Shown piece after piece: positions 10,654-37,448 of a DNA stretch of 64,000 nt; within the stretch, counting starts at the first letter, position 1; each line of letters begins with the position of its first letter. The position numbers were made by a program, and so were the translations under genes. The stretch comes from an uncultured bacterium (lineage in GTDB: Bacteria; Nitrospirota; Thermodesulfovibrionia; Thermodesulfovibrionales; Dissulfurispiraceae). The stretch is from contig CALEDV010000017.1 of assembly GCA_937949555.1 (NCBI GenBank), forward strand, positions 1 to 64,000. The letters are read 5' to 3'. The notes below the pieces were generated by a model. It worked only from the letters and a program-made list of their open reading frames with translations. It was not told where the DNA came from and ran no database searches.

Positions 10654-11415
10654 ATGTGCTTATTCAGAAAATACAACCGCTTCAAGCTGAACTTAAGCAC
10701 TAAGCTTATTATGAGCTGCAGCCTGACATTGATTATCGCCCTCGGCATTTCCTTCTATTTTATTGATCAGCGACAGGAAAGACTCATCATGGGACAGGTG
10801 GAGAATGAAGCCCGTGTCATATTCAAGCAGATAGTGATCACAAGAAAATGGATAGCAGACCACGGAGGGATATTCGTAGAAAAACTTCCGTGGATAAAGC
10901 CGACTCCCTATATAGAGAATTCCGAGGTCAGGGATGCACAGGGGAAGAGGTACATAAGGGAAACGCCTGCAATGGTTACAAAGGAGCTATCCAGGTATGC
11001 AAAGGACAAAGAACTCTACTGGTTTCACATAACAAGCCTGAAACTCACCAATCCTGAAAATGCACCGGATGAGTTCGAAAAAAAGGCGCTGCAGCAATTT
11101 AAAAAAGCATCCATAAAAGAGCTTATCTCTATAGAACAAATCGATAACTCCAAATATCTCAGGTACATATCGCCTCTCTATGTTGAAGAGGTATGCCTTA
11201 GCTGCCACGCAAAGCAGGGCTACAAAGTCGGCGATGTCAGGGGCGCTATAAGCGTCACAATACCAATGGATAAAACATTTGCAGAGATTGCCGAAAACAG
11301 GCAGCGCATGTTAATCGCTGCTGTCCTTACTGTCCTGACGCTTATGGCCGCCATGTTTTTTTATGATGAAGAAGATTGTACTAACCCCGATGAAAAGGCT
11401 CAGATCCGCGATTAA
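10654..11415 (+). CDS. sensor histidine kinase, N-terminal part: TM helix plus DUF3365/Tll0287-like c-heme sensor domain (frame-disrupted)
   Basis: ETPAMVTKELSRYAKDKELYWFHITSLK...VCLSCHAKQGYKVGDVRGAISVTIPM; continues in the +1 frame at 11363. Confidence 0.8.
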   Translation: MCLFRKYNRFKLNLSTKLIMSCSLTLIIALGISFYFIDQRQERLIMGQVENEARVIFKQIVITRKWIADHGGIFVEKLPWIKPTPYIENSEVRDAQGKRYIRETPAMVTKELSRYAKDKELYWFHITSLKLTNPENAPDEFEKKALQQFKKASIKELISIEQIDNSKYLRYISPLYVEEVCLSCHAKQGYKVGDVRGAISVTIPMDKTFAEIAENRQRMLIAAVLTVLTLMAAMFFYDEEDCTNPDEKAQIRD

Positions 11416-12409
11416 TGAATTCTCGGAGGGCACGTACTGTCCGTCAAAGGGGTTAAAGACAGGAGATGAATTCGAGGACCTCTACAGGGCATTCTCCCAA
11501 ATGGCAGGCACACTCACCGATTATCACAGCTGCCTGAACAATAAGATAAAGGATGCAACAAAAGGCCTCGAAGAAACAAACAGGAAATTAATCGAAACCA
11601 ACCGTCTTCTTAACGAGGCGAACATAAGAAAATCCGACTTCATAGCACGAGCATCCCATGAATTACGGACGCCTCTGACATCGATCAAAGGCGCAATGGA
11701 TTACATATCGGCAAAACTCTCGTCCTATTTGCAAACTCATCATGAAGAAACGACCCTCGATGACCTTCATATATTCTTTGAGGTAATAAAGAAAAACTCC
11801 GAGAGATTGATACGCATGGTTAACACCATGCTGGACATCGAGAGGATAGAGATGGGGACCTCTGAATTGCGCTTTGCCGATGTAAATCTTTCCTATCTTA
11901 TTGCAGAAGCACTGACGTATCTCCAGATAAATGCCGACGAAAAAGGCATATACTTCAATGCAAACATACCCAACAATATTACGGTCCACATCGATGAAGA
12001 CAGGATAAAGCAGGTCATTATCAATCTCCTGTCAAATGCCATAAAGTTCGCCCCGGAGGAATCTGAGATACTTATCTTTGTATATCCTGAGAAAGATCAT
12101 GCGGTTGTAGAAATATGGGATGACGGCCCAGGTATCCCGCCGTCGGAGCATGAAAGGGTTTTTGAAAAATTCTACAAAAACGGAAAAAATAAGGAAGGCA
12201 CAGGGCTTGGTCTTGCCATATGCAAAAGCATAATAGAAGCGCATGATGGTATAATTGGTGTAAACAGCGACGGTAAAAACGGAAGCTGTTTCTATTTTAA
12301 ACTGCCTTACACAAAGGGACATCATGAAAGCCTTTCACAGGAAGGTTTCAATAGGACAGAACAGCATAAACTGCTGGAAATAGCAAAAAAGATAACAGCA
12401 CCATGCTAA
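11363..12409 (+). CDS. sensor histidine kinase, C-terminal part: HAMP, HisKA, HATPase_c
   Basis: FIARASHELRTPLTSIKGAM, NLLSNAIKFAPEE, GTGLGLAICKSII; frame offset from the upstream half at a T7 tract. Confidence 0.85.
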   Translation: MMKKIVLTPMKRLRSAINEFSEGTYCPSKGLKTGDEFEDLYRAFSQMAGTLTDYHSCLNNKIKDATKGLEETNRKLIETNRLLNEANIRKSDFIARASHELRTPLTSIKGAMDYISAKLSSYLQTHHEETTLDDLHIFFEVIKKNSERLIRMVNTMLDIERIEMGTSELRFADVNLSYLIAEALTYLQINADEKGIYFNANIPNNITVHIDEDRIKQVIINLLSNAIKFAPEESEILIFVYPEKDHAVVEIWDDGPGIPPSEHERVFEKFYKNGKNKEGTGLGLAICKSIIEAHDGIIGVNSDGKNGSCFYFKLPYTKGHHESLSQEGFNRTEQHKLLEIAKKITAPC

Positions 12410-13101
12410 GAGAGGGTAAAAACCATACAATACTGGTAATCGATGACGACAGGGACATCCTGAAGGTCTTAAAGGCAAACCTCGAGCTTCATAAATACAA
12501 TGTCACTACTGCAGAATCATGGACAGAAGGACAAAAGATAATCTCTGCAAGAAAACCTGACCTCCTGATTCTTGATCTAATGCTCCCTGACGGAGATGGT
12601 GTTGAAATATGCCGTACATTGACAAAACAGTATTCCTCTTTGCCGATAATAATGCTTACCGCAAAGGATAAGATTTCCGATAAGGTAATAGGACTCGAAA
12701 GCGGCGCTGACGACTATGTGGTAAAACCCTTTGAAACCCTTGAGTTGATAGCAAGGATAAAGGCTTGCATGAGGAGGGCAAAACCATCGGAGGAAGAACA
12801 GGCAACAATAGGAAAAATAAACATCGACTATAAGAGAAGAATAGTAAAGGTCAAGAACAAAGAGATAATCCTGACGCCAAAGGAATACGACCTTTTGTGC
12901 CTCCTGATTTCCAGCAGGGGTTCTGTTCTGAGCAGGGAGGAGATAAAAAATCATCTCTGGAAAGAATCAAAGTTATATTCATGGAGCAGGGTTATAGATG
13001 TCCACATCCAGCATCTGAGACAGAAAATAGAGGACAATCCTTCTGAGCCCGAATATATACTCACCGTTTCCGGAATAGGATACCGTTTTAAGCCAGAATA
13101 A
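12403..13101 (+). CDS. OmpR/PhoB-family response regulator
   Basis: VIDDDRDILKVLK, LLILDLMLPDGDGVEIC, GADDYVVKPFE; winged-helix C-terminus. Confidence 0.92.
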   Translation: MLREGKNHTILVIDDDRDILKVLKANLELHKYNVTTAESWTEGQKIISARKPDLLILDLMLPDGDGVEICRTLTKQYSSLPIIMLTAKDKISDKVIGLESGADDYVVKPFETLELIARIKACMRRAKPSEEEQATIGKINIDYKRRIVKVKNKEIILTPKEYDLLCLLISSRGSVLSREEIKNHLWKESKLYSWSRVIDVHIQHLRQKIEDNPSEPEYILTVSGIGYRFKPE

Positions 13102-14116: not shown

Positions 14117-15763
14117 ATGAGAAAGAAGACACTCATTATAGCACTATTGGTTGTTGCATCATTGGTGTTTTTAACAGCGATTCAGGATTCAGCGGATGCA
14201 CAAAAGGCAAAACCTGCAGTAAATACCGTGACTGCTGATACCTGCTATGGATGTCACAGCAATATCAAGGACTTTCATAAGTCAGGCAAGCATGCGAAGG
14301 TAAACTGCACTACCTGCCATGATGGAACAGACAAACATCTCAAAGATGCCTCGGCAAAACCGGTCACAAAGATGGACCTTGCCACTTGTGGAAGCTGCCA
14401 TAAGGAACAGTATGAATCCTTTGTGGCAACTAATCTCCACTCCAAGGCAAGGGTTGAAAAGGCAAACTACAAGAGCAGATCTCCCTTATTTGACAAGCTG
14501 ATGATGCCCCATGGTTTTACAAAGGAGCATGCAGAGCCAAGGAGCCATGTGTTTATGTTAGTTGACCACCTGCTTGTAGACAGGGCTTATGGGGGAAGAT
14601 TTCAATTAAAGGACTGGACTAAAATATCGGACGCTAAAGGCGCCGAGAAGGATGCATGGAGCCTCATAACCGATAAAGACCCCTCATCCTCAGATCAGAA
14701 GACATTCATCCCTCAGACCTTTACAGCGGCAAATCCTGTGTGCTTCCAATGTAAAACACAGGATATGATCCTTGACTGGGCTTATATGGGTGATAAAAAC
14801 CCCAAAGCAAAATGGGATAGAACCTCTAAGGTTGTTGACTTTGCACGTTCTATGAAACATCCAGTGAACTGCTTTGCCTGTCATGACCCCCATTCAACAC
14901 AACCCAGGGTTGTCAGAGATGGACTCATTGAGGCAGTAGTTGACAGGGGCGAAGGAACATATCCATATGACAAGGAAAAGAGCAAGCAGATCACCATGAA
15001 AAAGGTTATGTTCAGGGATTATAGGGCAATAGGTCTGCTTAATAAATCTGATTCCAATCTCATGTGTGCACAGTGCCATGTGGAATACAACTGCAACCCA
15101 GGCCACAACCCAGAGACTGGGGAGGCGGTAGGTATGGCCGACAGGCGCACGAACCTCTTTCAGTGGGTCAACGTCTTTGATTACAACAAGGTCATGGCAG
15201 AGAAGTATAAATTCAAGGACTTTAAGCATGCCATCACTGGTGCCTCTTTGTCAAAAATTCAGCACCCAGAGACTGAGACCTTCTGGGGTAGCAAGCATGA
15301 GAGGGCAGGCGTAGAGTGCAAAGACTGCCATATGCCAAAGGTTAAGACCAAGGATAGAAAAAAAACCTATACTTGGCATGGACAGAGAAGCGCAAGGTAT
15401 ATGCTTAAAGACACCTGCGTAAAATGCCATAAAGGATGGACTCCTGAAGAGGCTGAGTATCAGGTTGAGGCAGTTCAAAATTACATCCGCGGAAAGATGT
15501 CTAAGGCTGAGTTCTGGTTAGCGCAGTTTATAGACACCTTTGCTAAGGCTAAATCAAGGGGTGTCAGTGAGGATGTATTGAAAGAGGCAAGAAAAATTCA
15601 TGACACTGCCCATACTTATTGGGAGTGGTGGACTGCTGAAAATTCCGACGGTTTTCACAATCCTGAGGCTGCCCGCCAATCGCTCACGCTCTCTATCGAT
15701 GCCTCTCAGAAGGGAATCAAGCTCCTAAACGAAGCTATGGATCCTAAGACAACGAGTAAGTAG
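14117..15763 (+). CDS. octaheme cytochrome c nitrite reductase (ONR/TvNiR-type, NrfA superfamily)
   Basis: Signal peptide; 7 CxxCH plus one CFQCK catalytic-type heme site; CAQCHVEYNC and VECKDCHMPKV NrfA-like motifs. Confidence 0.88.
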   Translation: MRKKTLIIALLVVASLVFLTAIQDSADAQKAKPAVNTVTADTCYGCHSNIKDFHKSGKHAKVNCTTCHDGTDKHLKDASAKPVTKMDLATCGSCHKEQYESFVATNLHSKARVEKANYKSRSPLFDKLMMPHGFTKEHAEPRSHVFMLVDHLLVDRAYGGRFQLKDWTKISDAKGAEKDAWSLITDKDPSSSDQKTFIPQTFTAANPVCFQCKTQDMILDWAYMGDKNPKAKWDRTSKVVDFARSMKHPVNCFACHDPHSTQPRVVRDGLIEAVVDRGEGTYPYDKEKSKQITMKKVMFRDYRAIGLLNKSDSNLMCAQCHVEYNCNPGHNPETGEAVGMADRRTNLFQWVNVFDYNKVMAEKYKFKDFKHAITGASLSKIQHPETETFWGSKHERAGVECKDCHMPKVKTKDRKKTYTWHGQRSARYMLKDTCVKCHKGWTPEEAEYQVEAVQNYIRGKMSKAEFWLAQFIDTFAKAKSRGVSEDVLKEARKIHDTAHTYWEWWTAENSDGFHNPEAARQSLTLSIDASQKGIKLLNEAMDPKTTSK

Positions 15764-15778
15764 GTTTACTGCATAATT

Positions 15779-15806
15779 GGGCGGGTTTATACCCGCCCTT
15801 ATTTTT
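15779..15806 (+). terminator. rho-independent terminator after octaheme nitrite reductase
   Basis: GGGCGGGTttataCCCGCCCttattttt. Confidence 0.85.
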
Positions 15807-15858
15807 GGGAGGCATTAAAGTGGTTTTTGGTAAAGAGAGGGTGCAGCAGATTTACAAT

Positions 15859-15940
15859 AAATGAACCACAGAGACAGGGGGGCACAAGAACTAAGGGAGG
15901 TTAAGAGTCTTTTGTATGTCTCGATGTCTCTATGATCAGA
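15859..15940. repeat. imperfect inverted repeat of CAGAGACA words upstream of cytochrome gene
   Basis: aaccaCAGAGACAgggggg ... gTCTCgatgTCTCTatgatcAGAGAC. Confidence 0.4.
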
Positions 15941-15981
15941 GACAAATCAGGTTATTAAAACCAAAAAAGGAGGCAGTGTAT

Positions 15982-16476
15982 ATGAAAAGTATATTCCTAA
16001 TTTGTTTGATCTGCATCGTTGCATCAACCTTCATCTATATCAAAGAATCCTTAAGTCATTCAAACAGCGCCCCAATAATGGACTGTATGAGTTGTCATCA
16101 GGGCGATCTAAAAAGCGATCTGTTAACAGTAATTGGCATGCCAAAGACTTATACCCCAGGAAAATCTTACAGTATAAAGATCTCGGTCAAAAGCGAATTA
16201 CAGGCTCAAGGGGAACCTCAAGGCGGCTTTGCCTTAGAGGCCTCTGGTGGGAAGATAGTTGTTTCTGACAAGAAAAACACCCAAATAATTGGCAGCTTTC
16301 TCACCCACACCCTCCAGGGGGCACAAAAGAGAGACTGGAGTTTTACATGGCAGGCTCCCAAGGGAAAAGAGGATGTTACAATCACAATAATGGCAGTAGC
16401 TTCAAATGGCGACTACTCACCTTTTGGAGAGGAAATAGGGGCTCAGAGCTTTACAATCAAAGCCTCAGCTAAATAA
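15982..16476 (+). CDS. monoheme cytochrome with Reeler/choice-of-anchor-V-like domain
   Basis: Signal peptide; MDCMSCHQGD; GMPKTYTPGKSYSIKISV...GGFALEASGGK; RBS AAAGGAGG supports ATG at 15982 rather than 15916. Confidence 0.65.
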   Translation: MKSIFLICLICIVASTFIYIKESLSHSNSAPIMDCMSCHQGDLKSDLLTVIGMPKTYTPGKSYSIKISVKSELQAQGEPQGGFALEASGGKIVVSDKKNTQIIGSFLTHTLQGAQKRDWSFTWQAPKGKEDVTITIMAVASNGDYSPFGEEIGAQSFTIKASAK

Positions 16477-16489
16477 GGAGGGGAAAGAG

Positions 16490-19400
16490 ATGGATATACA
16501 TAGAAGAGAGTTCTTAAAGGCCTGCGCTATAGCATCAGCTGCGGCTGCTGTAGGCATTTCTTTGCCTGAGTCATTGCTTGCAGCAAACAATGTAAAGACC
16601 TTACCAGTTGGGCAATGCCGCTACTGTGCAGTGGGGTGCACTATTTTAGCAGACTGTGAGCTGGATAGTGCAAATAAGGTGACCAAAGTGCTTGCACTAA
16701 AGGGAGACCTTAAGAGTCCGGTAAACCGAGGGGTTCTCTGTACAAAGGGCTTTTACCTCCACAAGGCCCTACAGTATAAAGACAGACCTAAAGGGGCCCT
16801 CATTAGAAAGGAGTGGATAAACCCGAAGACAGGCAAACCAGACCTTTACAACTCTCCAAGGGTCTTAGAGGGTAAGACAACAAAGGATCCTAAGGGCATA
16901 AAGGCCTCTGAGATAGATATGAAGGAGAACTTTGTCCAGGTCCCTTGGGAAGAGGCTATTGAGTTTGTGACAGAGGCGGTAGTTAAGACAATTAGGGAGA
17001 ATGGTAAGCACAGTGTGGCCTATTATGGAAGTGGACAGCTTGGCACTGAAGAGACCCACATAATGAATAAGGTCTTCAAGGGCGGGGGTATGCTTGCCAA
17101 TAATGCCATTGAGGGACAGCCACGCACCTGTATGGCTTCTGCAGTGGTGGGTTATCTTTACGCCTTTGGCAAAGACGAACCCTATGGTTGCCTTGATGAT
17201 ATCGATGTACCAGACCCAGACTTCAGAAAGACTGCAGATACGCTATTTATTATAGGCAATAACACTGCAGAGGCCCATCCAATACTATTTAACAGGATGG
17301 CCGCACAGAAGTCTAAGAACCCTGATATGAAGGTCATCCTTGCTGACCCACGCAAAACAAGATCTGGAACTATAGCTGATCTATGGCTCCCCTTTGCCTC
17401 AGGCCGAGACATATTGCTTTTAAACTCCATGGCTTATGTCATAACCCATGAGTTAGATAAGGCAAAATATGATATTGAAAAAGGTACTGTAGAGGCAAGC
17501 TGGAAGTATCTTGACAAGAAGTTCATTGAGCGTCATGTGAGCTTTGGCATCCATGAGGATGTAAAGAAGACATGGATAAAGACGGTATACGGTGGCACAA
17601 GGGATACGGCCTGGGATTTGACATATAGTGCCACACCAAGAAAGACCTATCCTTCCCTCAAGACACAATATGATAGCGAGGAGGCAATAATCAAAGACCT
17701 TTATAAGGGTTTTGCAATATTCTTAACGTTCCTTGAGGACTACAAACCTGAAAAGGTCTCTGAACTAATCTTTGAGGGTGAGTCACCTCTAATTTATGAA
17801 AAGACCACAAGGACATGGAAGATTCTATCAGGCCCTGAGGCCATAAGGTTGGCAGCCAAGTGGTTTGTTGAAGGGTATACCCTATCGGCATGGTGTATGG
17901 GAGTAAACCAAAAGCTTCAAGGTACCTGGGTAAATGCCACACTTCACATGCTCCATCTGATTACAGGAAAGGCCGTAAAGCCAGGTAGACACTCCTTCAG
18001 CTTCACAGGTCAACCTAATGCCTGTGGTGGCATAAGGGCACCTGGTGCACTTTGCCACGCATTGCCCTATGGTCGATTAGTGGCAAATCCCCTACACAGG
18101 GCAGCAGTAGAGAAGATATGGAAAGACAGGTCAGCAGAATATCTCAAAAAGATCGGCATAGATGAGGGTAATATAAAAAAAGAGATAGAAAAGATAAAGA
18201 TACATGACAAACCTGGTCCACACACCGTTGAGATGTTCAGACGCCTTGGGGCAGGCCAGATAAAGGTACAATTCATTTCCACAGTCAATGCTGGTCAATC
18301 ACTACCCTATGCCTGGCCCTACAGACTTGCAATGGGTGGTGCACAAAAAGGTACACCTTGGCCTTTGGTCGTTACCCTCGAGGCATTTCCAAATGCAACG
18401 ACTATGGTATCTGATGTGGTACTCGGTGCCTCCAGTTGGTATGAAAAGGAGTTCGTCTTCGGTAACCTTGAAAGGCGCTATCAGGTTATAAAGCAGACCA
18501 TCGAGCCCTACGGCAATACTATGCCAGACCACACCATCTTTGCATGCATTATGAGGAGGCTCGAGGAGAAGGGCATTGTCCCCAAAGGCCATATCTCCCA
18601 ATTCTGGCCAAAGGAGTATGATGGTGCTGATTGGCTCAAAAAGACCATAACAGCAGCAAAGACAAAGGAGTGGAACAGGGAGTTTTCTTCAAACATCTGG
18701 AGCGAGCTTATGGCCCTCTCAAAAGGCACAGGCTATGACTTCAGTGGTATGAACCGCAAGATGCTCCTCGATCAAAACCATGGATACAGGATACCGCTAC
18801 CAGCAGAGTATCATACCAATGCAGACATAAAAGCCAGATATGACAAGTATAACTCGAGGATACAGTATGCGTACCCCTATGATCCCCATATAGAAAAACT
18901 TACAGCCGCTTATCTGAAAAACATGAAGGAATTCAACCCCGTATATGGGGCATGGCTTGAGAAAAACATCGAGGCCATGAAGAAAGACGAGGAATACCAC
19001 AAAAGAGAGAATCTACCTCAAAACTGGTATGCCAGCTTCTACAATTCCAATGCATTTATAAACGGGATGATAGACATCCCTACCCCTGATGGCAAGACCA
19101 GAAAGGCACCTGGTTGGGATGGTAGGGCTATTGCATGGGCAAACCCATGGTGGGCCTGTAAGTTTGATGGTAAATCCTTTGTGAAATACAAGACCGTAGA
19201 GATAATCGAGCGCCTATTTAATCCACAGAAGGTAAATGAAGATAGCACCCTACCCTTCGATGTGACAACAAAACACACAGTAAATGTCATAGGAGACCCT
19301 GATAAAGACCCAAATGCCCTAAAGAACATTGCCTTGAGTCCTGCTGAGTTTCCAAGTCTTAGGCATGAGTATGTAAAGGCCGATGGGACAAAGCTTCTGA

Positions 19401-19825
19401 TAATAGATACAACACAATATCCTTATGGTGCCTGTACAGGCAGGGTTGTTGAACACTGGCATTCAGGTAGCATGACTACGAGGGTCTCAGAGCTCAATCG
19501 TGCAGTGCCTGGGGCCTATGTTGAGATTAGCGAGGCCCTTGGCAAAAGACTGGGGATCAAAAATGGCGACCCCGTTATTGTTGAATCCCCAAGGGGCAAG
19601 ATCGAGTTGCCTGCCAAACTCCTTGATGTTACCAAAGCAACTGGTGGGCCAAGATATGACTATATCTTTGTCCCATGGTTTGATGAATACAAACTCATCA
19701 ACATGATTATGCGAGATGCCTTTGATCCTTTTAGTTTCCAGCCTGACTACAAGATGTTTGCCGTAAAGATATACAAAGGCAAGACAAGAGGTAGGCAGGC
19801 AGAGGCAGGGAAGGTCATCGCCTAA
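16490..19825 (+). CDS. napA: periplasmic nitrate reductase-like molybdopterin oxidoreductase (extended NapA, Tat-exported)
   Basis: RREFLKACAIASAA Tat signal; CRYCAVGC...GVLCTKGF [4Fe-4S]; GQPRTCMASAVVGYLYAFGKDEPYGCLDDI; GRVVEHWHSGSMTTRVSELNRAVPGAYVE; C-terminal VPWFDEYKLIN...FQPDYKMFAVKI. Confidence 0.85.
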   Translation: MDIHRREFLKACAIASAAAAVGISLPESLLAANNVKTLPVGQCRYCAVGCTILADCELDSANKVTKVLALKGDLKSPVNRGVLCTKGFYLHKALQYKDRPKGALIRKEWINPKTGKPDLYNSPRVLEGKTTKDPKGIKASEIDMKENFVQVPWEEAIEFVTEAVVKTIRENGKHSVAYYGSGQLGTEETHIMNKVFKGGGMLANNAIEGQPRTCMASAVVGYLYAFGKDEPYGCLDDIDVPDPDFRKTADTLFIIGNNTAEAHPILFNRMAAQKSKNPDMKVILADPRKTRSGTIADLWLPFASGRDILLLNSMAYVITHELDKAKYDIEKGTVEASWKYLDKKFIERHVSFGIHEDVKKTWIKTVYGGTRDTAWDLTYSATPRKTYPSLKTQYDSEEAIIKDLYKGFAIFLTFLEDYKPEKVSELIFEGESPLIYEKTTRTWKILSGPEAIRLAAKWFVEGYTLSAWCMGVNQKLQGTWVNATLHMLHLITGKAVKPGRHSFSFTGQPNACGGIRAPGALCHALPYGRLVANPLHRAAVEKIWKDRSAEYLKKIGIDEGNIKKEIEKIKIHDKPGPHTVEMFRRLGAGQIKVQFISTVNAGQSLPYAWPYRLAMGGAQKGTPWPLVVTLEAFPNATTMVSDVVLGASSWYEKEFVFGNLERRYQVIKQTIEPYGNTMPDHTIFACIMRRLEEKGIVPKGHISQFWPKEYDGADWLKKTITAAKTKEWNREFSSNIWSELMALSKGTGYDFSGMNRKMLLDQNHGYRIPLPAEYHTNADIKARYDKYNSRIQYAYPYDPHIEKLTAAYLKNMKEFNPVYGAWLEKNIEAMKKDEEYHKRENLPQNWYASFYNSNAFINGMIDIPTPDGKTRKAPGWDGRAIAWANPWWACKFDGKSFVKYKTVEIIERLFNPQKVNEDSTLPFDVTTKHTVNVIGDPDKDPNALKNIALSPAEFPSLRHEYVKADGTKLLIIDTTQYPYGACTGRVVEHWHSGSMTTRVSELNRAVPGAYVEISEALGKRLGIKNGDPVIVESPRGKIELPAKLLDVTKATGGPRYDYIFVPWFDEYKLINMIMRDAFDPFSFQPDYKMFAVKIYKGKTRGRQAEAGKVIA

Positions 19826-19860
19826 TTTAGGGGGGCTGTAAATGCCCCCTACATGTTCCA

Positions 19861-20625
19861 ATGAACCGTAGAGAATTTATATTAAAGACACTCCTTGCTA
19901 CAACCACCTTGTCATTTAGCCTTCTTGGGGGTTGTGTCAATAAAACCACCACAGGGTCAGATAAAGAAGGCCTCTTAGAGCCCCTGCCAGATATAAGGGT
20001 TGAAGGTTATATCAGACCACCCGGTGCAGTTCAGGAGCCCTTATTTAGGGCCAGGTGCACTGGTTGTGGGGTATGTATTAATCTTTGTCACATCGCGAAG
20101 TACGATGCCCTTACTGCCTCGGGCCTCAAGCATGGTCTTTCAGATCTTGCTCTACCTTACATCAAAGACTTCAGGGATCATCCATGTGCACTATGCATGG
20201 AGTGTCCCAGACATTGCCCTACTGGTGCCTTAGTAAACTTGCAAAAGGAAGATGTCAAGATGGGTATGGCCCTAATAGATTTTTCGCTTTGCTTTGGATA
20301 CAATGGCGATGTGTGTCTGAGTTGTAGCAAGGCATGTCCCCTTGGTGCCAAGGTATTTGACTTCTACAACAGTGAATGGGGCAATCAGCCATATATAAAT
20401 GAAAACTGTGTGGGCTGCGGGCTTTGTGTCAAGTACTGTCCCTTGGGAGGTTCTGCCATCAAGGTAGTTACAAAGGGTCAGTATGAAAAGATAAAAGGCA
20501 CCTATATTTATCAATTCAAAAACCTCATGGCCTTAAGTAACGAAGAACGGTACAACATGGTTTATGGCCAGAACCTGCCCAGTATCATGTCCAGAGGAAG
20601 GATAATAGAGAGGGAGTACCGTTGA
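19861..20625 (+). CDS. napG: NapG-like ferredoxin-type protein (4x[4Fe-4S])
   Basis: CTGCGVCINLC, CALCMECPRHCPTGAL, CVGCGLCVKYCPLGG; precedes NapH-like gene. Confidence 0.85.
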   Translation: MNRREFILKTLLATTTLSFSLLGGCVNKTTTGSDKEGLLEPLPDIRVEGYIRPPGAVQEPLFRARCTGCGVCINLCHIAKYDALTASGLKHGLSDLALPYIKDFRDHPCALCMECPRHCPTGALVNLQKEDVKMGMALIDFSLCFGYNGDVCLSCSKACPLGAKVFDFYNSEWGNQPYINENCVGCGLCVKYCPLGGSAIKVVTKGQYEKIKGTYIYQFKNLMALSNEERYNMVYGQNLPSIMSRGRIIEREYR

Positions 20626-21482
20626 AGACATACACAAAGGCCCGGAGGGGAGTAATGTTGGTCTTTTTATTGTTCTTTATCCTCCAGCTGGCCAAGATCA
20701 ACATTGTAGCAGGAAGCCTGACTGGCTCTGTTGCCTTTTCATATATCAGGTTCTTAGACCCCTTTGCATACCTTGAGAGCCTCTTGGCCTCAAGAGATCT
20801 TGTAGCCCATGCCCTATGGTCAGTGATGCTTGTGGTCATGTTGTATTTAATCCTTGGTAGAGCCTTCTGTGGATGGCTCTGTCCAATGGATTATGCCTTT
20901 GGGTTAATGAATAGTATAAGGTCGTCTTTCAAGAGCAGATTCAAAAACAATGTAGAGGGCACAGTCCCAGAGACCCATAAAAAAGGCATCTATCAATGGC
21001 TTAGTTACAAAAAGACAGGATACCTCTTGGCCCTTTTGTTTTTGTTAACATCGGCTATGTTAGGGGTGCCCTTTTTTACAAACTATATGTCGCACCTTAC
21101 AAACCTCTACAGAGGTATTACGGCAGGCTACTTCGCCCTATCATCCTTGCCAGTAGATATAGACCTTATTGTATATTCCCTGTCGGCCTTAACGCTTTTA
21201 ATTGTTTTGGAGTCATTGTATCCCCGTCTATGGTGTAGGGGTCTTTGTCCAGTGGGGAGGACCTATGGTCTCTTCAACAAACTCAGCCTGTTGAGATTGA
21301 CATCAAAAAAGGATACCTGTATCCATTGTGAGGCCTGCGATAAGGAGTGTTATATGGGTGTAGACGTATCAAGACATACAGAACAGGCCGCCATTAGGGA
21401 TACTAACTGTATCTTATGTGGCAGATGCATAGAGGCCTGTGCCCAAAAGGGTAAAACACTTAAATTAACCTTCAGGAGGTAG
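20622..21482 (+). CDS. napH: NapH-like quinol dehydrogenase membrane component
   Basis: TM helices, FCGWLCPMDYAFG, WCRGLCPVGRTYGL, CIHCEACDKEC, CILCGRCIEAC. Confidence 0.88.
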   Translation: MKTYTKARRGVMLVFLLFFILQLAKINIVAGSLTGSVAFSYIRFLDPFAYLESLLASRDLVAHALWSVMLVVMLYLILGRAFCGWLCPMDYAFGLMNSIRSSFKSRFKNNVEGTVPETHKKGIYQWLSYKKTGYLLALLFLLTSAMLGVPFFTNYMSHLTNLYRGITAGYFALSSLPVDIDLIVYSLSALTLLIVLESLYPRLWCRGLCPVGRTYGLFNKLSLLRLTSKKDTCIHCEACDKECYMGVDVSRHTEQAAIRDTNCILCGRCIEACAQKGKTLKLTFRR

Positions 21483-30737: not shown

Positions 30738-33194
30738 TCAATCCATTGACAACCTTACTGCCACAAGGGGCACCCCTTGACCAATAGATGGATAGGTGAG
30801 TGTATTTAGCCTTGCATGGATAAAGTGTAAGGGTGCAAATACACAGCCCTGAGGCACCTCATTTGTAATAAGGGGCTTTATAAAGACATCACCCCTTCTT
30901 GATGTAACCCTTATTGGTCTGCCCTCCTTGATATCAAACCTCTCGGCATCAATGTTGTTTACGAGTAAAAAGGCATCAGGGACAAAGGCAGAGAGATTCT
31001 TTGATAGACCCGAGAGGGCCCCTGAGTGTTGCAACACATTGGCAGTTACCAAGGTTAAAGGATACTCACTGTCTGTAGATTCAAGGATCACATTTTCCAC
31101 TGGGTTAAATGCCTTAAAGTACTCACGCCCTTTTATAGAAAGCCCTATCTTTTCCTTTGACTTTACCCCTATCTCCTCAAGGGTCATGGGGACTGGCGCA
31201 GTCGTCATTGCCCTTGCCACATTCCTTAGTATCATCCAATCGGGCATGGACTGCCCAACCACAGAAGAGATCTTTGATATACCCTGTATCAATCCTGATG
31301 CAGATAAGAAATTACCATCCTTTTCGGCCCAACTGCATGCAGGCAAGACTACATCAGCTATCTTGGCGGTGTCAGTCATGAAGATGTCTTGGACTGCCAA
31401 GAATTCAAGCCCCCTCAGCCTTTTCTCCACAGCCTTTAGGTTTGGAAAGACCACGAGAGGGTTCTCACCGAGAATATAGAGAGCCTTCAATTCAGTACTC
31501 TCATACATCATCTGGTAGCCGTTTAAGCCATTGTCCTGAGGTCTGACACCGCTAAAGTATGTACCAAGGGTATTGCAGAGCTCTGCAGGTGATTGGAGTT
31601 GGTCAGGAGAGTCACCCATGAGGAGTATAAGATTTGCCGCTGCGAGCAATATATTGACATCCTTTGTATTCTCTGAAAAGCTCGAGGTAATGGCAATGAG
31701 CCTCTTCTGTGCCCGAGCGTAGTCTTCAGCAATGCTGACTATTATTTGTTCATCGACCCCAACTTCAGAGGCAGCCTTTGAGAGGGAGAAATTGTCTAAA
31801 AAGTGCACCATCTTGTCGTGATTCTGTATCCCAGAGAGGGCCTCTCTGTTGTAAAGCCCCCTGTCATAGATCACCTTCATAAGGGAGTTTATAAAGGTAG
31901 TGCCATGACCTGGCCTGATCCTTATCCAGTCTGCTGTATTCCTTGCAAGCTTGGTCTCCTTTGAATCTACCACCACGAGCCTTGAGCCAGCGTTCTTGCT
32001 GTGTATGAAATTAAGTCCCCAGACGGGCAATGTGGATGTGATGTCAGACTCGATGATGAGCATAAAGTCTGAGTATAATGGTTTGTCCCACTGAATAGGT
32101 AAGTAGTCAATACCAAATGCCGCCTTGAAGGCCTGTAAGGCCTTTGCGTAACCAAATCTGGCAGCAGAGTCTATAGAGTCTGTGCCTATAACATCCCTGA
32201 GTAAGAATTGGAGCATATAGTTGTCTTCTATAGTGCACCTCTGTGAGCCAATCCCACCAATAGATGCAGGGCCATATTTGTCCTTAATGTCTGTTAGTCT
32301 TTTAACGATGTAATCAATCGCCTCATCCCAAGTTACTGGCTCGTGGGTTCCATCTTTCCTTATCATTGGTTGAGTGAGTCTATTTTCGGAGTAAATAAAA
32401 TCAAAACCAAACCTACCCCTCCCACATAGATTACCGTCGTTAATACCAGTGCCCTCTTTCCCCCTCGAGCGTATTATCTTGTTCTCTCTGGTATTGACAG
32501 CGATTGTGCACCCACAGCCACAGAAAGGACAGATGATTGTATGCTCATCCATATACCATATCCTTGATTTATGCCTGTAGTCTTTGCTGCCCAACGCCCC
32601 TACGGGACATGCGTCTATACACTGCCCACAAAACTCACAGTCAAGGGTCTCTTCAAAGGCTGGGCTTATGTTGGTGCGAAAGCCCCTACCTATAAAATTA
32701 AGGGCCCCTACCCCCTGGTGTTCATTGCATATACCAACACATATGCCACAGAGCACACAACGATTTGGATTGCGCTCCACAAAGGGCGCCTCGAGCCTCT
32801 CCTTGTCCTTCCTCCTGACTGCTGTAAACCTGTTTCCGTGCCCTCCGTAACGGAATGCAATATCCTGAAGCTTACACTCCCCTGCCTTATCACATATGGG
32901 GCAGTCCAGAGGGTGATACAAAAGCAGGAACTCTAAGACAGTCTTCCTTGCCTCAGCAATGGTATCACTTTCGGTGATTACTACCATGCCATCTCTAATC
33001 TGTGTCGCACAGGCCGCCGATAATTCCCTTTGCCCCTCAATCTCCACAAGACATAGCCTACAACCCGCATAGGGTTTTAGCCTCTTGTCGTAACAGAGGT
33101 TGGGTATGTATATGCCGTTTTCTAAGGCCGTAGCCAACACTGTGGCACCTTTTTCGCCCTTCACCTTTTTATTGTTGATGGTCAGTTCTATCAT
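30738..33194 (-). CDS. NuoG/FdhA-like NADH-dehydrogenase/molybdopterin oxidoreductase subunit
   Basis: [2Fe-2S] CYDKRLKPYAGCRLCLVEIEG; HPLDCPICDKAGECKLQ; 2x[4Fe-4S]; CPFCGCGC...GNLCGRGRFGFDF; Mopterin domain. FDH Sec/Cys position appears to be Gly (ARFGYAKA). Confidence 0.85.
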   Translation of the reverse strand: MIELTINNKKVKGEKGATVLATALENGIYIPNLCYDKRLKPYAGCRLCLVEIEGQRELSAACATQIRDGMVVITESDTIAEARKTVLEFLLLYHPLDCPICDKAGECKLQDIAFRYGGHGNRFTAVRRKDKERLEAPFVERNPNRCVLCGICVGICNEHQGVGALNFIGRGFRTNISPAFEETLDCEFCGQCIDACPVGALGSKDYRHKSRIWYMDEHTIICPFCGCGCTIAVNTRENKIIRSRGKEGTGINDGNLCGRGRFGFDFIYSENRLTQPMIRKDGTHEPVTWDEAIDYIVKRLTDIKDKYGPASIGGIGSQRCTIEDNYMLQFLLRDVIGTDSIDSAARFGYAKALQAFKAAFGIDYLPIQWDKPLYSDFMLIIESDITSTLPVWGLNFIHSKNAGSRLVVVDSKETKLARNTADWIRIRPGHGTTFINSLMKVIYDRGLYNREALSGIQNHDKMVHFLDNFSLSKAASEVGVDEQIIVSIAEDYARAQKRLIAITSSFSENTKDVNILLAAANLILLMGDSPDQLQSPAELCNTLGTYFSGVRPQDNGLNGYQMMYESTELKALYILGENPLVVFPNLKAVEKRLRGLEFLAVQDIFMTDTAKIADVVLPACSWAEKDGNFLSASGLIQGISKISSVVGQSMPDWMILRNVARAMTTAPVPMTLEEIGVKSKEKIGLSIKGREYFKAFNPVENVILESTDSEYPLTLVTANVLQHSGALSGLSKNLSAFVPDAFLLVNNIDAERFDIKEGRPIRVTSRRGDVFIKPLITNEVPQGCVFAPLHFIHARLNTLTYPSIGQGVPLVAVRLSMD

Positions 33195-35062
33195 TGCCCT
33201 GCCTCCTTATCCGCAATATCTCCCTTTGGCGCCTCTGTATTTGACAATATACTTTCCCTCATTGCACGAGGACCTATCTTTATGCTGTAAAAATTGCACT
33301 TTAAATAGCATGACCTACATTGGATACACAGAGACTGGTCAATGTGATGGGGCTTTTTCCTTTCTCCACTTATTGCCTTCTTAGGACATACCCTTGCACA
33401 GGCCCCGCAACCAACACATTTAGTCTCATCAATATAGAAGGTGCACAATTCTTTACAAACACCAGTCTTACACCACTTTTGCTCCACATGTTCTATAAAC
33501 TCATCCTTAAAGTATCTAAGGCTGGTCAATACAGGGTTTGGAGAGGTCTTTCCCAATCCACAGAGCGATGCATTGATTATCTGTTTACTTATATTTTCAA
33601 TCAATTCAATGTCTTGCTTCTCTCCTCTACCTTCTGTAATCTTGCACAATAGGTCAAGCAGTACCGTATTACCTATCCTGCAGGGAGTGCATTTGCCACA
33701 GGACTCCTCAGTGGAGAACTCCAGGAAAAACTTAGACACACTGACCATGCAGTTTAGGTCATCCATGACAACCATACCGCCTGAACCCACTATGGCACCG
33801 GTCTTCTGTATATCCTCAAAGGTCACTGGCGTATCAAGTAGGGACTCAGGGATGCAACCACCAGAGGGACCACCTAACTGAACGGCCTTAAACTTTCTAC
33901 CCTTTGGGATACCCCCACCTATGTCAAATATTATCTTTCTAAGGGGGGTACCCATTGGTACCTCTACAAGACCTATGTTCTTTATGGATCCGCTTAAGGC
34001 AAATACCTTTGTGCCTGTGGATCTCTCTGTACCGAGGCCCCTATACCAGTCTCCACCTCTCAGTATTATTTGAGGGATGTTGGCAAGGGTCTCTACATTG
34101 TTAAGGACTGTAGGCCTATCCCAGAGCCCCTTTACTGCAGAACGCCAGAACTTGGGCCTCGGCATACCTCTCTTGCCCTCGATAGAACGCATGAGGGCCG
34201 AGGCCTCACCACAGACAAAGGCCCCTGCACCCTGACTGATCTCTATATCGAAGTCAAAACCACTGTTAAGGATATTGTCACCTAACAATCCATATTCTTT
34301 TGCCTGAGCTATGGCGATCTTGAGCCGACTAACTGCAAGGGGATACTCGGCCCTCACATATATGTATCCCTTATTTGCCCCTATTGCCTTTGCCCCAATC
34401 AACATCCCCTCAAGGACTGCATGGGGGTCACCTTCCATAATACTCCTGTCCATAAAGGCCCCTGGATCACCCTCATCTCCGTTACAAATTATATACTTAA
34501 GTGGGGCGTCTACCTTTGCGCTCAACTCCCACTTTAGGCCTGTGGGAAAACCAGCGCCCCCCCTACCTCTGATGCCTGACTTCTTTACCTCTTCTATGAT
34601 CTCTTGTGGTGTCATCTCAAAAAGGGCCTTTGCTGCTGCAAGGTATCCCTCCCTGGCAATGTACTCCTCCATCTTCTCAGGGTCTATAAGCCCCTTGTTC
34701 CTTAGTGCCCAGGTTGTTTGATACTTAAAAAAGGGTATCTCATCCATGAGGGCAATAGGGTGTTTTGTGGTGGAGTCCTTATGCATCAACCTCTCAACCG
34801 GCATGCCCTTTATGAAGTGTTCCTCCACTATCTCTGGTATATCCTTTAGCATAAACTTTTCATAGAAGATTCCCTCAGGATACACCGTCATCACAGGCCC
34901 TTGGGCACAAAAGCCATTACAACCTGTAAATACCACATTGACCTCATTCTCAAGTCCCCTGTTTAAGAGCTCCTCCTCAAGGGCCTCTTTGATCTTAAGG
35001 CTACCGCTGGCCATACAACCCGTCCCCCCGCAAAGCATTATGCTCGATCTGTATAGATTCAT
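33191..35062 (-). CDS. NuoF/HndC-like NADH-binding flavoprotein with C-terminal ferredoxin domain
   Basis: GRGGAGFPTGLKWE, CNGDEGDPGAFMDR, ESCGKCTPCRIG, C-terminal CVGCGACARVCP...CIQCRSCYLKC. Confidence 0.93.
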   Translation of the reverse strand: MNLYRSSIMLCGGTGCMASGSLKIKEALEEELLNRGLENEVNVVFTGCNGFCAQGPVMTVYPEGIFYEKFMLKDIPEIVEEHFIKGMPVERLMHKDSTTKHPIALMDEIPFFKYQTTWALRNKGLIDPEKMEEYIAREGYLAAAKALFEMTPQEIIEEVKKSGIRGRGGAGFPTGLKWELSAKVDAPLKYIICNGDEGDPGAFMDRSIMEGDPHAVLEGMLIGAKAIGANKGYIYVRAEYPLAVSRLKIAIAQAKEYGLLGDNILNSGFDFDIEISQGAGAFVCGEASALMRSIEGKRGMPRPKFWRSAVKGLWDRPTVLNNVETLANIPQIILRGGDWYRGLGTERSTGTKVFALSGSIKNIGLVEVPMGTPLRKIIFDIGGGIPKGRKFKAVQLGGPSGGCIPESLLDTPVTFEDIQKTGAIVGSGGMVVMDDLNCMVSVSKFFLEFSTEESCGKCTPCRIGNTVLLDLLCKITEGRGEKQDIELIENISKQIINASLCGLGKTSPNPVLTSLRYFKDEFIEHVEQKWCKTGVCKELCTFYIDETKCVGCGACARVCPKKAISGERKKPHHIDQSLCIQCRSCYLKCNFYSIKIGPRAMRESILSNTEAPKGDIADKEAGQ

Positions 35063-35074
35063 CCTTATTCCCCC

Positions 35075-35935
35075 CTATTCATACTGTTTTACAATGTGCA
35101 TTATATTGACAGGAGTAACCGAGCCATGGGTGTCTTTGTCAACGACTACCACTGGCGCCAAACCGCAGGCCCCAAGGCATCGAACCGTATCAACGGAATA
35201 CTTACGGTCCTCTGTCATCCCACTTGCCCCAATCCTCAGTCCAGCCTTCAGATTGTTCATAATCTCTTCAGCGCCCTTGACATAACAGGCCGTGCCCAGA
35301 CAGACCTTTATGTTGTGCTTGCCCTTTGGTTTCATGGTAAAGAAGGAATAGAAAGAGACAACACCGTGTACCTCACTCACAGGCACCCTCAGCCCTCGTG
35401 CAATATGCTTTTGTATAACAGGCGGCAGATAGCCAAATAACTCCTGTGCCTCCTGTAACACTGGTATCAAGGCGCCTGGCTTATTCTTGTAAGCATCTAT
35501 TATCTCATCAAGTCTCTGGACCATCTCGTCGGTATACTCTGCAGGCCTCGATTCTGAAGCCGTTACCTTTGACTTCATCTCCATGGTCTTTGTAACAACC
35601 TCGAGCAATATTGAAGGGGAGAAGGGCTTTGGCAGATAATCAAGGACCTTGAGGCTAAGAGACTCTTTGAGGGTTTCCTGAGATGGGTACCCTGTGATTA
35701 TCAATATACTGACTTCTTGGTTACTTTTGCGGACCTCTTTGATAAACTCCATACCGTCCATTTCGGGCATCTTTAGGTCTGTTATAATAATGTCAAATCT
35801 ATTGAGGTCCTCTCGCTTCAGTGCCCTTATGGGTGAGGTCTCAGTCTCTACATCAAACCCCTCAGGTACCAATGTCTTCTCACAACTCCGCAAGATGATA
35901 GGCTCGTCATCTACTATAAGTATATTCCCCCTCAT
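35075..35935 (-). CDS. response-regulator receiver domain fused to NuoE/HndA-like [2Fe-2S] subunit
   Basis: N-terminus NILIVDDEPIILRSCEKTL...DIIITDLKMPEMDGMEF...LPKPF; C-terminus ALIPVLQEAQELFGYLPPVIQKHIARGLRVPVSEVHGVVSFYSFF...CLGTACYVKGA...CLGACGLAPVVVV. Confidence 0.93.
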   Translation of the reverse strand: MRGNILIVDDEPIILRSCEKTLVPEGFDVETETSPIRALKREDLNRFDIIITDLKMPEMDGMEFIKEVRKSNQEVSILIITGYPSQETLKESLSLKVLDYLPKPFSPSILLEVVTKTMEMKSKVTASESRPAEYTDEMVQRLDEIIDAYKNKPGALIPVLQEAQELFGYLPPVIQKHIARGLRVPVSEVHGVVSFYSFFTMKPKGKHNIKVCLGTACYVKGAEEIMNNLKAGLRIGASGMTEDRKYSVDTVRCLGACGLAPVVVVDKDTHGSVTPVNIMHIVKQYE

Positions 35936-36091: not shown

Positions 36092-36315
36092 GGGGTCAGG
36101 TCTTGAATCATCAGTTTTTAAGGCAATTCTCCCTTAACGCCTTGCTTGTGTAATGTAGCCCGAGATATTTCGCAATCTCCTTTAGTGTATAACCGTATAA
36201 TGAGCTAAGATAGCCGCTCCATGCCTTGAGATGTTACATGATATACCGACCCTGTGTATTCGCCCTTTGGATTAGCTATATTAGCGTTTTAGATCATATT
36301 TCAAGACCTGACCCC
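36092..36315 (-). mobile_element. transposon remnant with 16-bp perfect terminal inverted repeats, residual transposase C-terminus
   Basis: GGGGTCAGGTCTTGAA (36092-36107) and TTCAAGACCTGACCCC (36300-36315); interior minus strand encodes GYTLKEIAKYLGLHYTSKALREN, resembling the C-terminal HTH of Y1_Tnp-type transposases. Confidence 0.72.
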
Positions 36316-37448
36316 CATCCAAACCTATCTATTCTAAACCAAAGGAGACATTCAACAAAGTCCTTTGAAAGTATGGGATTATCGTTGAATCCAAAGAGAT
36401 GACCCTTGCAACCGCAATCTGAGGCTCCAAAGTTGGCGATAGTCCATTCACAGATTTCGTGCATTTTATCGGCAATCTGACATTCAATCCTCTCCGATGT
36501 TCTTATGGCAAAGGCATTTATGTATTGCCCATGCCCTGTTAGATAATCGATATGCCAAAACTTATTTTTTAGCTTTCTTTTGTGTCTCTCAATACGAGAG
36601 CAAAGGTTTTTCATTGCAGAACCCGTATAGATGTAATAGCCCCTTTTAAATCTAACTCTGCCAAGGGAACCTGTGTCTATATCTTGGTCATTATTTATTT
36701 TAAATAGTATCATGTAACTGCCTCTGTCCTGAGCTTCCTGCTCAATTATGTCTATGGGTATTTGAAGTTCTTTAATTGAGTCCTCAATCTGAAGGTCCTT
36801 GTTCCATTTTATGCCCACTGCCCTGATACTGATATTCTTGTAAACTTCTAAAAAGGTTTTTGAAAAATCAATATCTGTATGGTAATCAGGCATAAAAAAA
36901 GAGGGCTTCTGAGAATGAACAATAAATAAGACATGCCCCTTAAAGCCCTTGGCTGACAGTTCAGATAGTTCTTTTAGGTGTTTTATCCCTCTTTTAGTAG
37001 GTGCATCTGGGAAAAGGGCAATATCTCTCCCGAAAAGGGTGCAGGACTTTACCTCTAAATAGTGATGTTTATCCTTGTGAGCTGTAAGCATAAAGTCAAA
37101 TCTGCTCTGTCCAACCTTTACCTCGTTTTTAATAGCATCAAAATTATCCAAACCCTTTATAAGACCTCTCTGAAGCAGTGTCTTTGCAACGAGATTATTC
37201 AGATGGGTGTCAAGGAGCACTGGGCTGTCTCCTTTAAGTACAGCTATGACTTTGTATCTGAGGCTGCCCTTGTGAGAATTGACAAGATATAATGTTGCTC
37301 CCTTAATTAGTAACTCTATAAGCCTGCCAGGATTGGGTAGATATGCAGATGTAATCTCAGAGCCCACCTTGCACTGTATTACAAACCTATTTAGTCTTGT
37401 AATAAATTCCGCTTGGAGATAATCCTCTTTAAGTATTTTTATCGCCAT
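36294..37448 (-). CDS. sfsA: SfsA nuclease-like protein fused to C-terminal DUF123/GIY-YIG-like domain
   Basis: SfsA: YLPNPGRLIELL...SRFDFMLT...HYLEVKSCTLF...ALFPDAPTKRGIKHLKEL; DUF123: GSYMILFKINND...GRVRFKRGYYIYTGSAMKNLCSRIERHKRKLKNKFWHIDYL. Confidence 0.88.
   Translation of the reverse strand: MAIKILKEDYLQAEFITRLNRFVIQCKVGSEITSAYLPNPGRLIELLIKGATLYLVNSHKGSLRYKVIAVLKGDSPVLLDTHLNNLVAKTLLQRGLIKGLDNFDAIKNEVKVGQSRFDFMLTAHKDKHHYLEVKSCTLFGRDIALFPDAPTKRGIKHLKELSELSAKGFKGHVLFIVHSQKPSFFMPDYHTDIDFSKTFLEVYKNISIRAVGIKWNKDLQIEDSIKELQIPIDIIEQEAQDRGSYMILFKINNDQDIDTGSLGRVRFKRGYYIYTGSAMKNLCSRIERHKRKLKNKFWHIDYLTGHGQYINAFAIRTSERIECQIADKMHEICEWTIANFGASDCGCKGHLFGFNDNPILSKDFVECLLWFRIDRFGWGSGLEI

Follow-up and report, generated by a model that had tools for sequence, protein, structure and literature searches.

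A phospho-receiver domain fused to the NuoE-type subunit of a HydB-type NuoEFG complex in Nitrospirota, and a candidate haem-motif kinase partner

A receiver fused to a NuoE-type subunit

The window, by which we mean the whole stretch of 64,000 nucleotides analysed here, carries on its minus strand a run of three closely packed genes. The first, a 286-aa open reading frame with an ATG start, encodes an intact response-regulator receiver (REC) joined to an intact NuoE-type [2Fe-2S] domain; nuoF begins 12 bp 3′ of it, and the start of nuoG overlaps the nuoF stop by 4 bp. The features are:

35075–35935, minus strand: REC-NuoE fusion, 286 aa; REC residues 1 to ~122, linker ~124–133, NuoE/BfuC [2Fe-2S] domain ~136–286
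35594–35923, minus strand: REC (PF00072, Response_reg), residues 5–114, Pfam E 1e-24
35081–35509, minus strand: NuoE/HydC-type 2Fe-2S thioredoxin-like domain (PF01257, 2Fe-2S_thioredx), residues 143–285, Pfam E 8e-49
33191–35062, minus strand: NuoF of HydB/BfuB type, 623 aa; N-terminal thioredoxin-like [2Fe-2S], FMN/NADH domain, C-terminal 2x[4Fe-4S]
30738–33194, minus strand: NuoG-like subunit, 818 aa; [2Fe-2S] and [4Fe-4S] domains, molybdopterin-type domain

The residues that mark the receiver family (PF00072), namely an acidic pair, the phospho-acceptor Asp, a Thr/Ser and a Lys, are all present in the fusion as D9/D10 (with E11), D53, T81 and K103, and the NuoE half has its cluster cysteines as C212-x4-C217 and C253-x3-C257. 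An earlier note on this DNA had read a complete REC and a complete NuoE-like domain in this single frame, and had placed it at the head of NuoF- and NuoG-like genes; the residues, the Pfam domains and the gene order bear out both statements. An AlphaFold2 model of REC-NuoE (pLDDT 76.6, pTM 0.52), of moderate quality and, as that of a single protein, silent on the complex, consists of REC, a low-pLDDT linker (124–133) that is predicted to be flexible, and the NuoE domain. A fold search with the protein matched only the two known halves; the best solved matches of the NuoE half are HydC-type subunits, and by its sequence this domain can be assigned to the HydC-type C subunits of BfuABC/HydABC.

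Further genes in the window are recorded here in their own right. At 10654–13101, an open reading frame for a Tll0287-like haem sensor overlaps a kinase reading frame in a different frame, possibly as the result of a frameshift inside one kinase gene, and is followed by an OmpR-type regulator; a cluster at 14117–21482 encodes a cytochrome c552-like multihaem protein, an 1111-aa molybdopterin oxidoreductase and ferredoxin-type proteins; and 36294–37448 encodes an SfsA-DUF123 fusion.

The partner subunits and the type of enzyme

Residues 4–594 of NuoF align full-length to HydB (7q4v_B, E 6.5e-236), from the thioredoxin-like N-terminal portion to the 2x[4Fe-4S] C-terminal one, and its best solved matches over the full length are HydB subunits of electron-bifurcating hydrogenases. 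On this alignment NuoF can be classed as HydB/BfuB type rather than as a plain complex I NuoF, with the N-terminal [2Fe-2S], NuoF core and C-terminal 2x[4Fe-4S] of the BfuABC/HydABC B subunit, and the three genes therefore probably encode a soluble NuoEFG complex of the electron-bifurcating type, which may itself bifurcate electrons. The earlier designation of an NADH/ferredoxin diaphorase is thus better replaced by that of a HydB/BfuB-type, probably bifurcating, NuoEFG complex.

Several related enzymes were considered and rejected. The neighbouring FdhD in some relatives prompted a formate dehydrogenase reading, which is ruled out as NuoG has no Mo ligand: in the aligned NuoG homologues, the molybdopterin-type domain lacks the Mo-ligand Cys/Sec and adjacent His that an NAD-dependent formate dehydrogenase of the FdsGBA type would carry, these being replaced by SAARFGY or similar. 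A bidirectional hydrogenase (HoxEFU) is not indicated, the NCBIfam HoxE equivalog scoring 171.5 bits against a cut-off of 224, and no hydrogenase subunit gene adjoins the operon. Nor is respiratory complex I (NuoA-N), no nuoA-D/H-N being seen at the locus alongside nuoEFG. Downstream of nuoEFG lie genes for a periplasmic binding protein (assigned by Pfam) and a TonB-receptor-like protein (read from sequence).

Distribution, conservation and origin of the fusion

A fusion-profile search found REC-NuoE in ~112 of 396 Nitrospirota genomes, all of the window's class, with two further fusions interrupted by contig ends; in nine genomes of the sister class (f25) this NuoE stands without a REC. In one contig scan, full-length relatives numbered in the dozens at 53–66% identity, nearly all of them from Nitrospirota or Thermodesulfovibrionales. 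When two other phyla were searched (395 genomes from that of G398 and 398 from that of G408), scoring the top candidates per genome, no listed match above the strict E-value limits had REC on NuoE, and among the matches listed for 14 selected genomes of other phyla NuoE and REC occurred only as separate proteins. The fused proteins group in a single clade (98/91) of the NuoE tree, with unfused NuoE of f25 and of G398's phylum beside it, so that one fusion event is the simplest reading of their history.

Active-site residues are conserved almost throughout. Of 97 distinct fusions, 96 retain D9, 95 D10, 94 D53, 94 T81 and 95 K103, and all 97 retain the four [2Fe-2S] cysteines; degeneration of the phospho-acceptor site among homologues, which the earlier note had named as grounds for abandoning its reading, is confined to three genomes (G144, G172 and G174). 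The degenerate receivers fall in two lineages, G144 and G172 being of one genus.

Operon neighbourhood and receiver ancestry

NuoF and NuoG lie downstream of REC-NuoE at 84 of 86 loci. Upstream, in the 73 loci with at least 7 kb of sequence on that side of the fusion, signalling genes (histidine kinase, HATPase, REC or REC-GcvH) stand on the same strand in 65: REC-GcvH-like in 53, a HATPase protein in 32, a lone REC in 29, a PHP protein in 27, a histidine kinase in 26 and REC-sigma54 in 10. The window's genome has 45 kinase-like matches in 2.4 Mb, and a same-strand kinase at such a distance is therefore expected in far fewer than one-tenth of loci; the search of conserved neighbourhoods for a histidine kinase that the earlier note had proposed thus came out positive. 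The order at one locus (L190) is kinase, DRTGG-like, HATPase, DRTGG-like, PHP, HATPase, REC, REC-sigma54, REC-NuoE, thioredoxin-like [2Fe-2S], NuoF and NuoG, where the DRTGG labels, assigned by Pfam on the copies in the window's own genome, are carried over by position and size. The unfused f25 loci (L162, L163) run HATPase, a gene of 113–116 aa, PHP, HATPase, NuoE, Trx and NuoF, without receivers.

The arrangement is variable. The fusion operon occurs without a nearby kinase in f6 and other genomes, and f6 genomes have second REC-NuoE/NuoF/NuoG copies with no signalling genes close by (L125, L126, L128, L131, L132). The REC-GcvH-like fusion (L009, 9222–9989, and about 70 relatives) usually lies directly upstream of REC-NuoE; its GCV_H Pfam match is slightly under the curated cut-off, its GcvH-like domain appears to be without the lipoyl lysine, and its predicted structure, of low overall confidence, was left out of the argument.

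In a tree of 135 RECs, among them others sampled from the window's genome and from other phyla, the receivers of REC-NuoE (98/83), of REC-GcvH (100/99), of REC-sigma54 and of the operon lone REC fall in one clade (94/90; 72 rows), with those of REC-NuoE and REC-GcvH as sisters (97/87); REC being a short domain, many of the forks have weak support. The other RECs sampled from that genome and from other phyla lie beyond the clade; the only comparison-set row inside it (L049) is itself a Nitrospirota REC. The lone REC on contig C10 of the window's genome falls inside, and two lone RECs of these loci (L152 and window 12403) fall outside. These groupings indicate that the four kinds of receiver share an origin.

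A haem-motif kinase co-occurs with the intact receiver

The operon kinases are proteins of 520–540 aa with HAMP, HisKA and HATPase domains; their alignment suggests two membrane segments, between which nearly all carry CxxCH and CX4CHxH motifs; from these motifs we infer that the kinase would bind c-type haem in the periplasm. Of 396 genomes, 110 have both fusion and kinase, four the fusion only, 13 the kinase only and 269 neither, an association that tracks class phylogeny, so that its p-value overstates independence and few loss events decouple the two traits. The four with the fusion only are G144, G172 and G174, in which the REC is degenerate, and G358, which is 87% complete; put otherwise, the same haem-motif kinase is found in 110 of the 111 genomes with an intact fusion REC and in none of the three with a degenerate one. 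A recheck of 12 genomes with more candidates scored again found it absent only from G144, G172 and G174. This joint loss of kinase and REC active site, with the NuoE cysteines retained, is what is predicted for a kinase–receiver pair. G219, which has NuoE without REC, likewise has no kinase at the search threshold. The kinase is also present alongside a lone REC and REC-GcvH in the absence of REC-NuoE (G004, L248); the signalling module can therefore stand alone.

Possibly altered wiring in the window's own genome

In the genome from which the window derives, the kinase module (histidine kinase, DRTGG, HATPase, DRTGG, PHP, HATPase and REC) lies on another contig, C10 (L176, 3385–9675), apart from the NuoEFG genes. 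Its kinase, at 392 aa, is missing the periplasmic part with the haem motifs, a feature shared by G014 and several other relatives. No REC-GcvH was found in this genome, which is 88.9% complete. As the kinase is unlinked, its sensor region lost and REC-GcvH not found, the wiring here may differ from that of the typical operon. A second REC-NuoE (contig C63; L089, 7523–8452) immediately follows a 1123-aa PAS-hybrid kinase and precedes ubiE, at a locus (L089, 4089–8452) with no nuoF or nuoG, and the REC-NuoE–ubiE order recurs in the same genus (L136). Both the C10 kinase and the C63 hybrid kinase could be participants. Since the C63 copy and the REC-NuoE of G160 have no NuoF/NuoG neighbour, REC-NuoE may also act outside the complex.

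A proposed mechanism and its alternatives

In the Bfu family the C1 cluster of the C subunit has been proposed as the gate of electron flow (Schut et al., 2022; PMC9304861). We propose that REC-NuoE would take the place of this small [2Fe-2S] subunit (the BfuC/HydC/NuoE position) in a soluble HydB-type NuoEFG complex, bearing a working N-terminal phospho-receiver of the same origin as the receivers of a two-component system of haem kinase, lone REC, often REC-sigma54, and REC-GcvH-like protein. The haem kinase would sense a haem ligand or the redox conditions of the periplasm, and would phosphorylate Asp53 of REC-NuoE; the switched REC, held on its short flexible linker beside the C1 [2Fe-2S] cluster, would then alter the conformation of the subunit or dock a partner, whether REC-GcvH-like or another acceptor or donor, and so adjust electron flow among NADH, ferredoxin and a third acceptor. 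That the haem kinase phosphorylates REC-NuoE within the complex and thereby adjusts the enzyme or its partners seems to us fairly probable. The fuller version, in which a c-haem kinase controls a bifurcating enzyme in real time through the gate-subunit receiver and its GcvH-like sister receiver, in parallel with transcription through REC-sigma54, is offered tentatively, at a little under an even chance. The earlier idea of signalling wired into an electron-transfer complex is thus upheld by receiver conservation, kinase linkage and co-occurrence, with phosphorylation and a catalytic effect as its conjectural parts. The joint inheritance of the fusion and one particular haem-type sensor kinase suggests that outside signals can tune the enzyme itself, and not just the expression of its genes.

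Information could also flow in the opposite direction, with the NuoE [2Fe-2S] cluster as sensor: the redox state of the complex would set whether REC accepts or retains phosphate, and REC-NuoE would be a phosphate sink or redox-gated competitor reporting the NADH/ferredoxin state to the kinase/REC-sigma54 arm. Receivers of the same clade may have a common kinase, the operon contains REC-sigma54 and a lone REC, and the paralogue without NuoF/NuoG adjoins a hybrid kinase, all of which would suit such a scheme. We nevertheless regard it as unlikely, as nearly all copies (84/86) head nuoF and nuoG, the NuoE domain has the cluster residues expected of a normal functioning subunit, and the kinase-less genomes have a degenerate REC yet intact NuoE cysteines. 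A role for REC as a phosphorylation-independent docking or dimerisation module, for assembly of the complex or its tethering to the membrane kinase, would account for the conserved surface stretches GYPSQ and DYLPKPFSP and for the retention of a REC-like domain with a lost active site in three genomes, but 94–96 of 97 fusions retain the acidic pair, Asp, Thr and Lys, which are lost exactly where the kinase is absent, and we think this role improbable. That two separate genes were joined by mis-assembly or chance has no supporting point and is a negligible prospect, the same REC/NuoE junction being present in 97 distinct homologues from many independent assemblies and in the paralogue on contig C63 of the same genome; the assembly artefact against which the earlier note had cautioned is excluded.

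Relation to known systems and significance

Bfu complexes are already known, as are receivers with enzymatic outputs. REC-NuoE resembles response regulators with enzymatic output (PorX; c-di-GMP enzymes) in carrying REC on a non-DNA-binding output, but that output is here a subunit for electron transfer within a redox enzyme of several subunits. As in NtrBC-type systems (histidine kinase plus REC-sigma54), the operon has a kinase, a lone REC and REC-sigma54; unlike them, it has two further same-clade receivers, each joined to a metabolic domain (NuoE or GcvH-like). The likeness to BfuABC/HydABC lies in the full-length HydB/BfuB-type NuoF, the HydC/BfuC-type NuoE and the NuoG-like third subunit, whereas the C subunit here has an N-terminal REC and the operon is without a hydrogenase or an active Mo site; the terms ‘response regulator’, ‘receiver’ and ‘histidine kinase’ are absent from the main text describing the Bfu family (Schut et al., 2022; PMC9304861). 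Among experimental precedents the nearest is Rv3143/MSMEG_2064, a stand-alone orphan REC that binds mycobacterial complex I, whose activity it has been proposed to modulate (PMC9274095); it too is a receiver tied to an NADH dehydrogenase, but it is a separate protein with NuoD as partner, unfused and without a cognate kinase, from an unrelated lineage and on another type of complex (PMC9274095).

In the literature searched, outside which most subscription journals lay, we found no description of a REC-NuoE fusion, Rv3143 being the sole related idea; a Planctomycetes paper containing both terms concerned unrelated genes. Nor did that literature yield a receiver inside a bifurcation-type subunit with a linked kinase, although domain databases may list the REC plus NuoE architecture. 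How electron bifurcation is regulated in cells is largely open, and a bifurcation-type subunit that covalently bears a phospho-receiver, together with a candidate kinase from genomic linkage and co-loss, makes that question directly testable in a little-studied class of Nitrospirota. If true, our proposal would add the direct control of a central redox enzyme to the outputs of two-component systems, beyond gene expression and motility.
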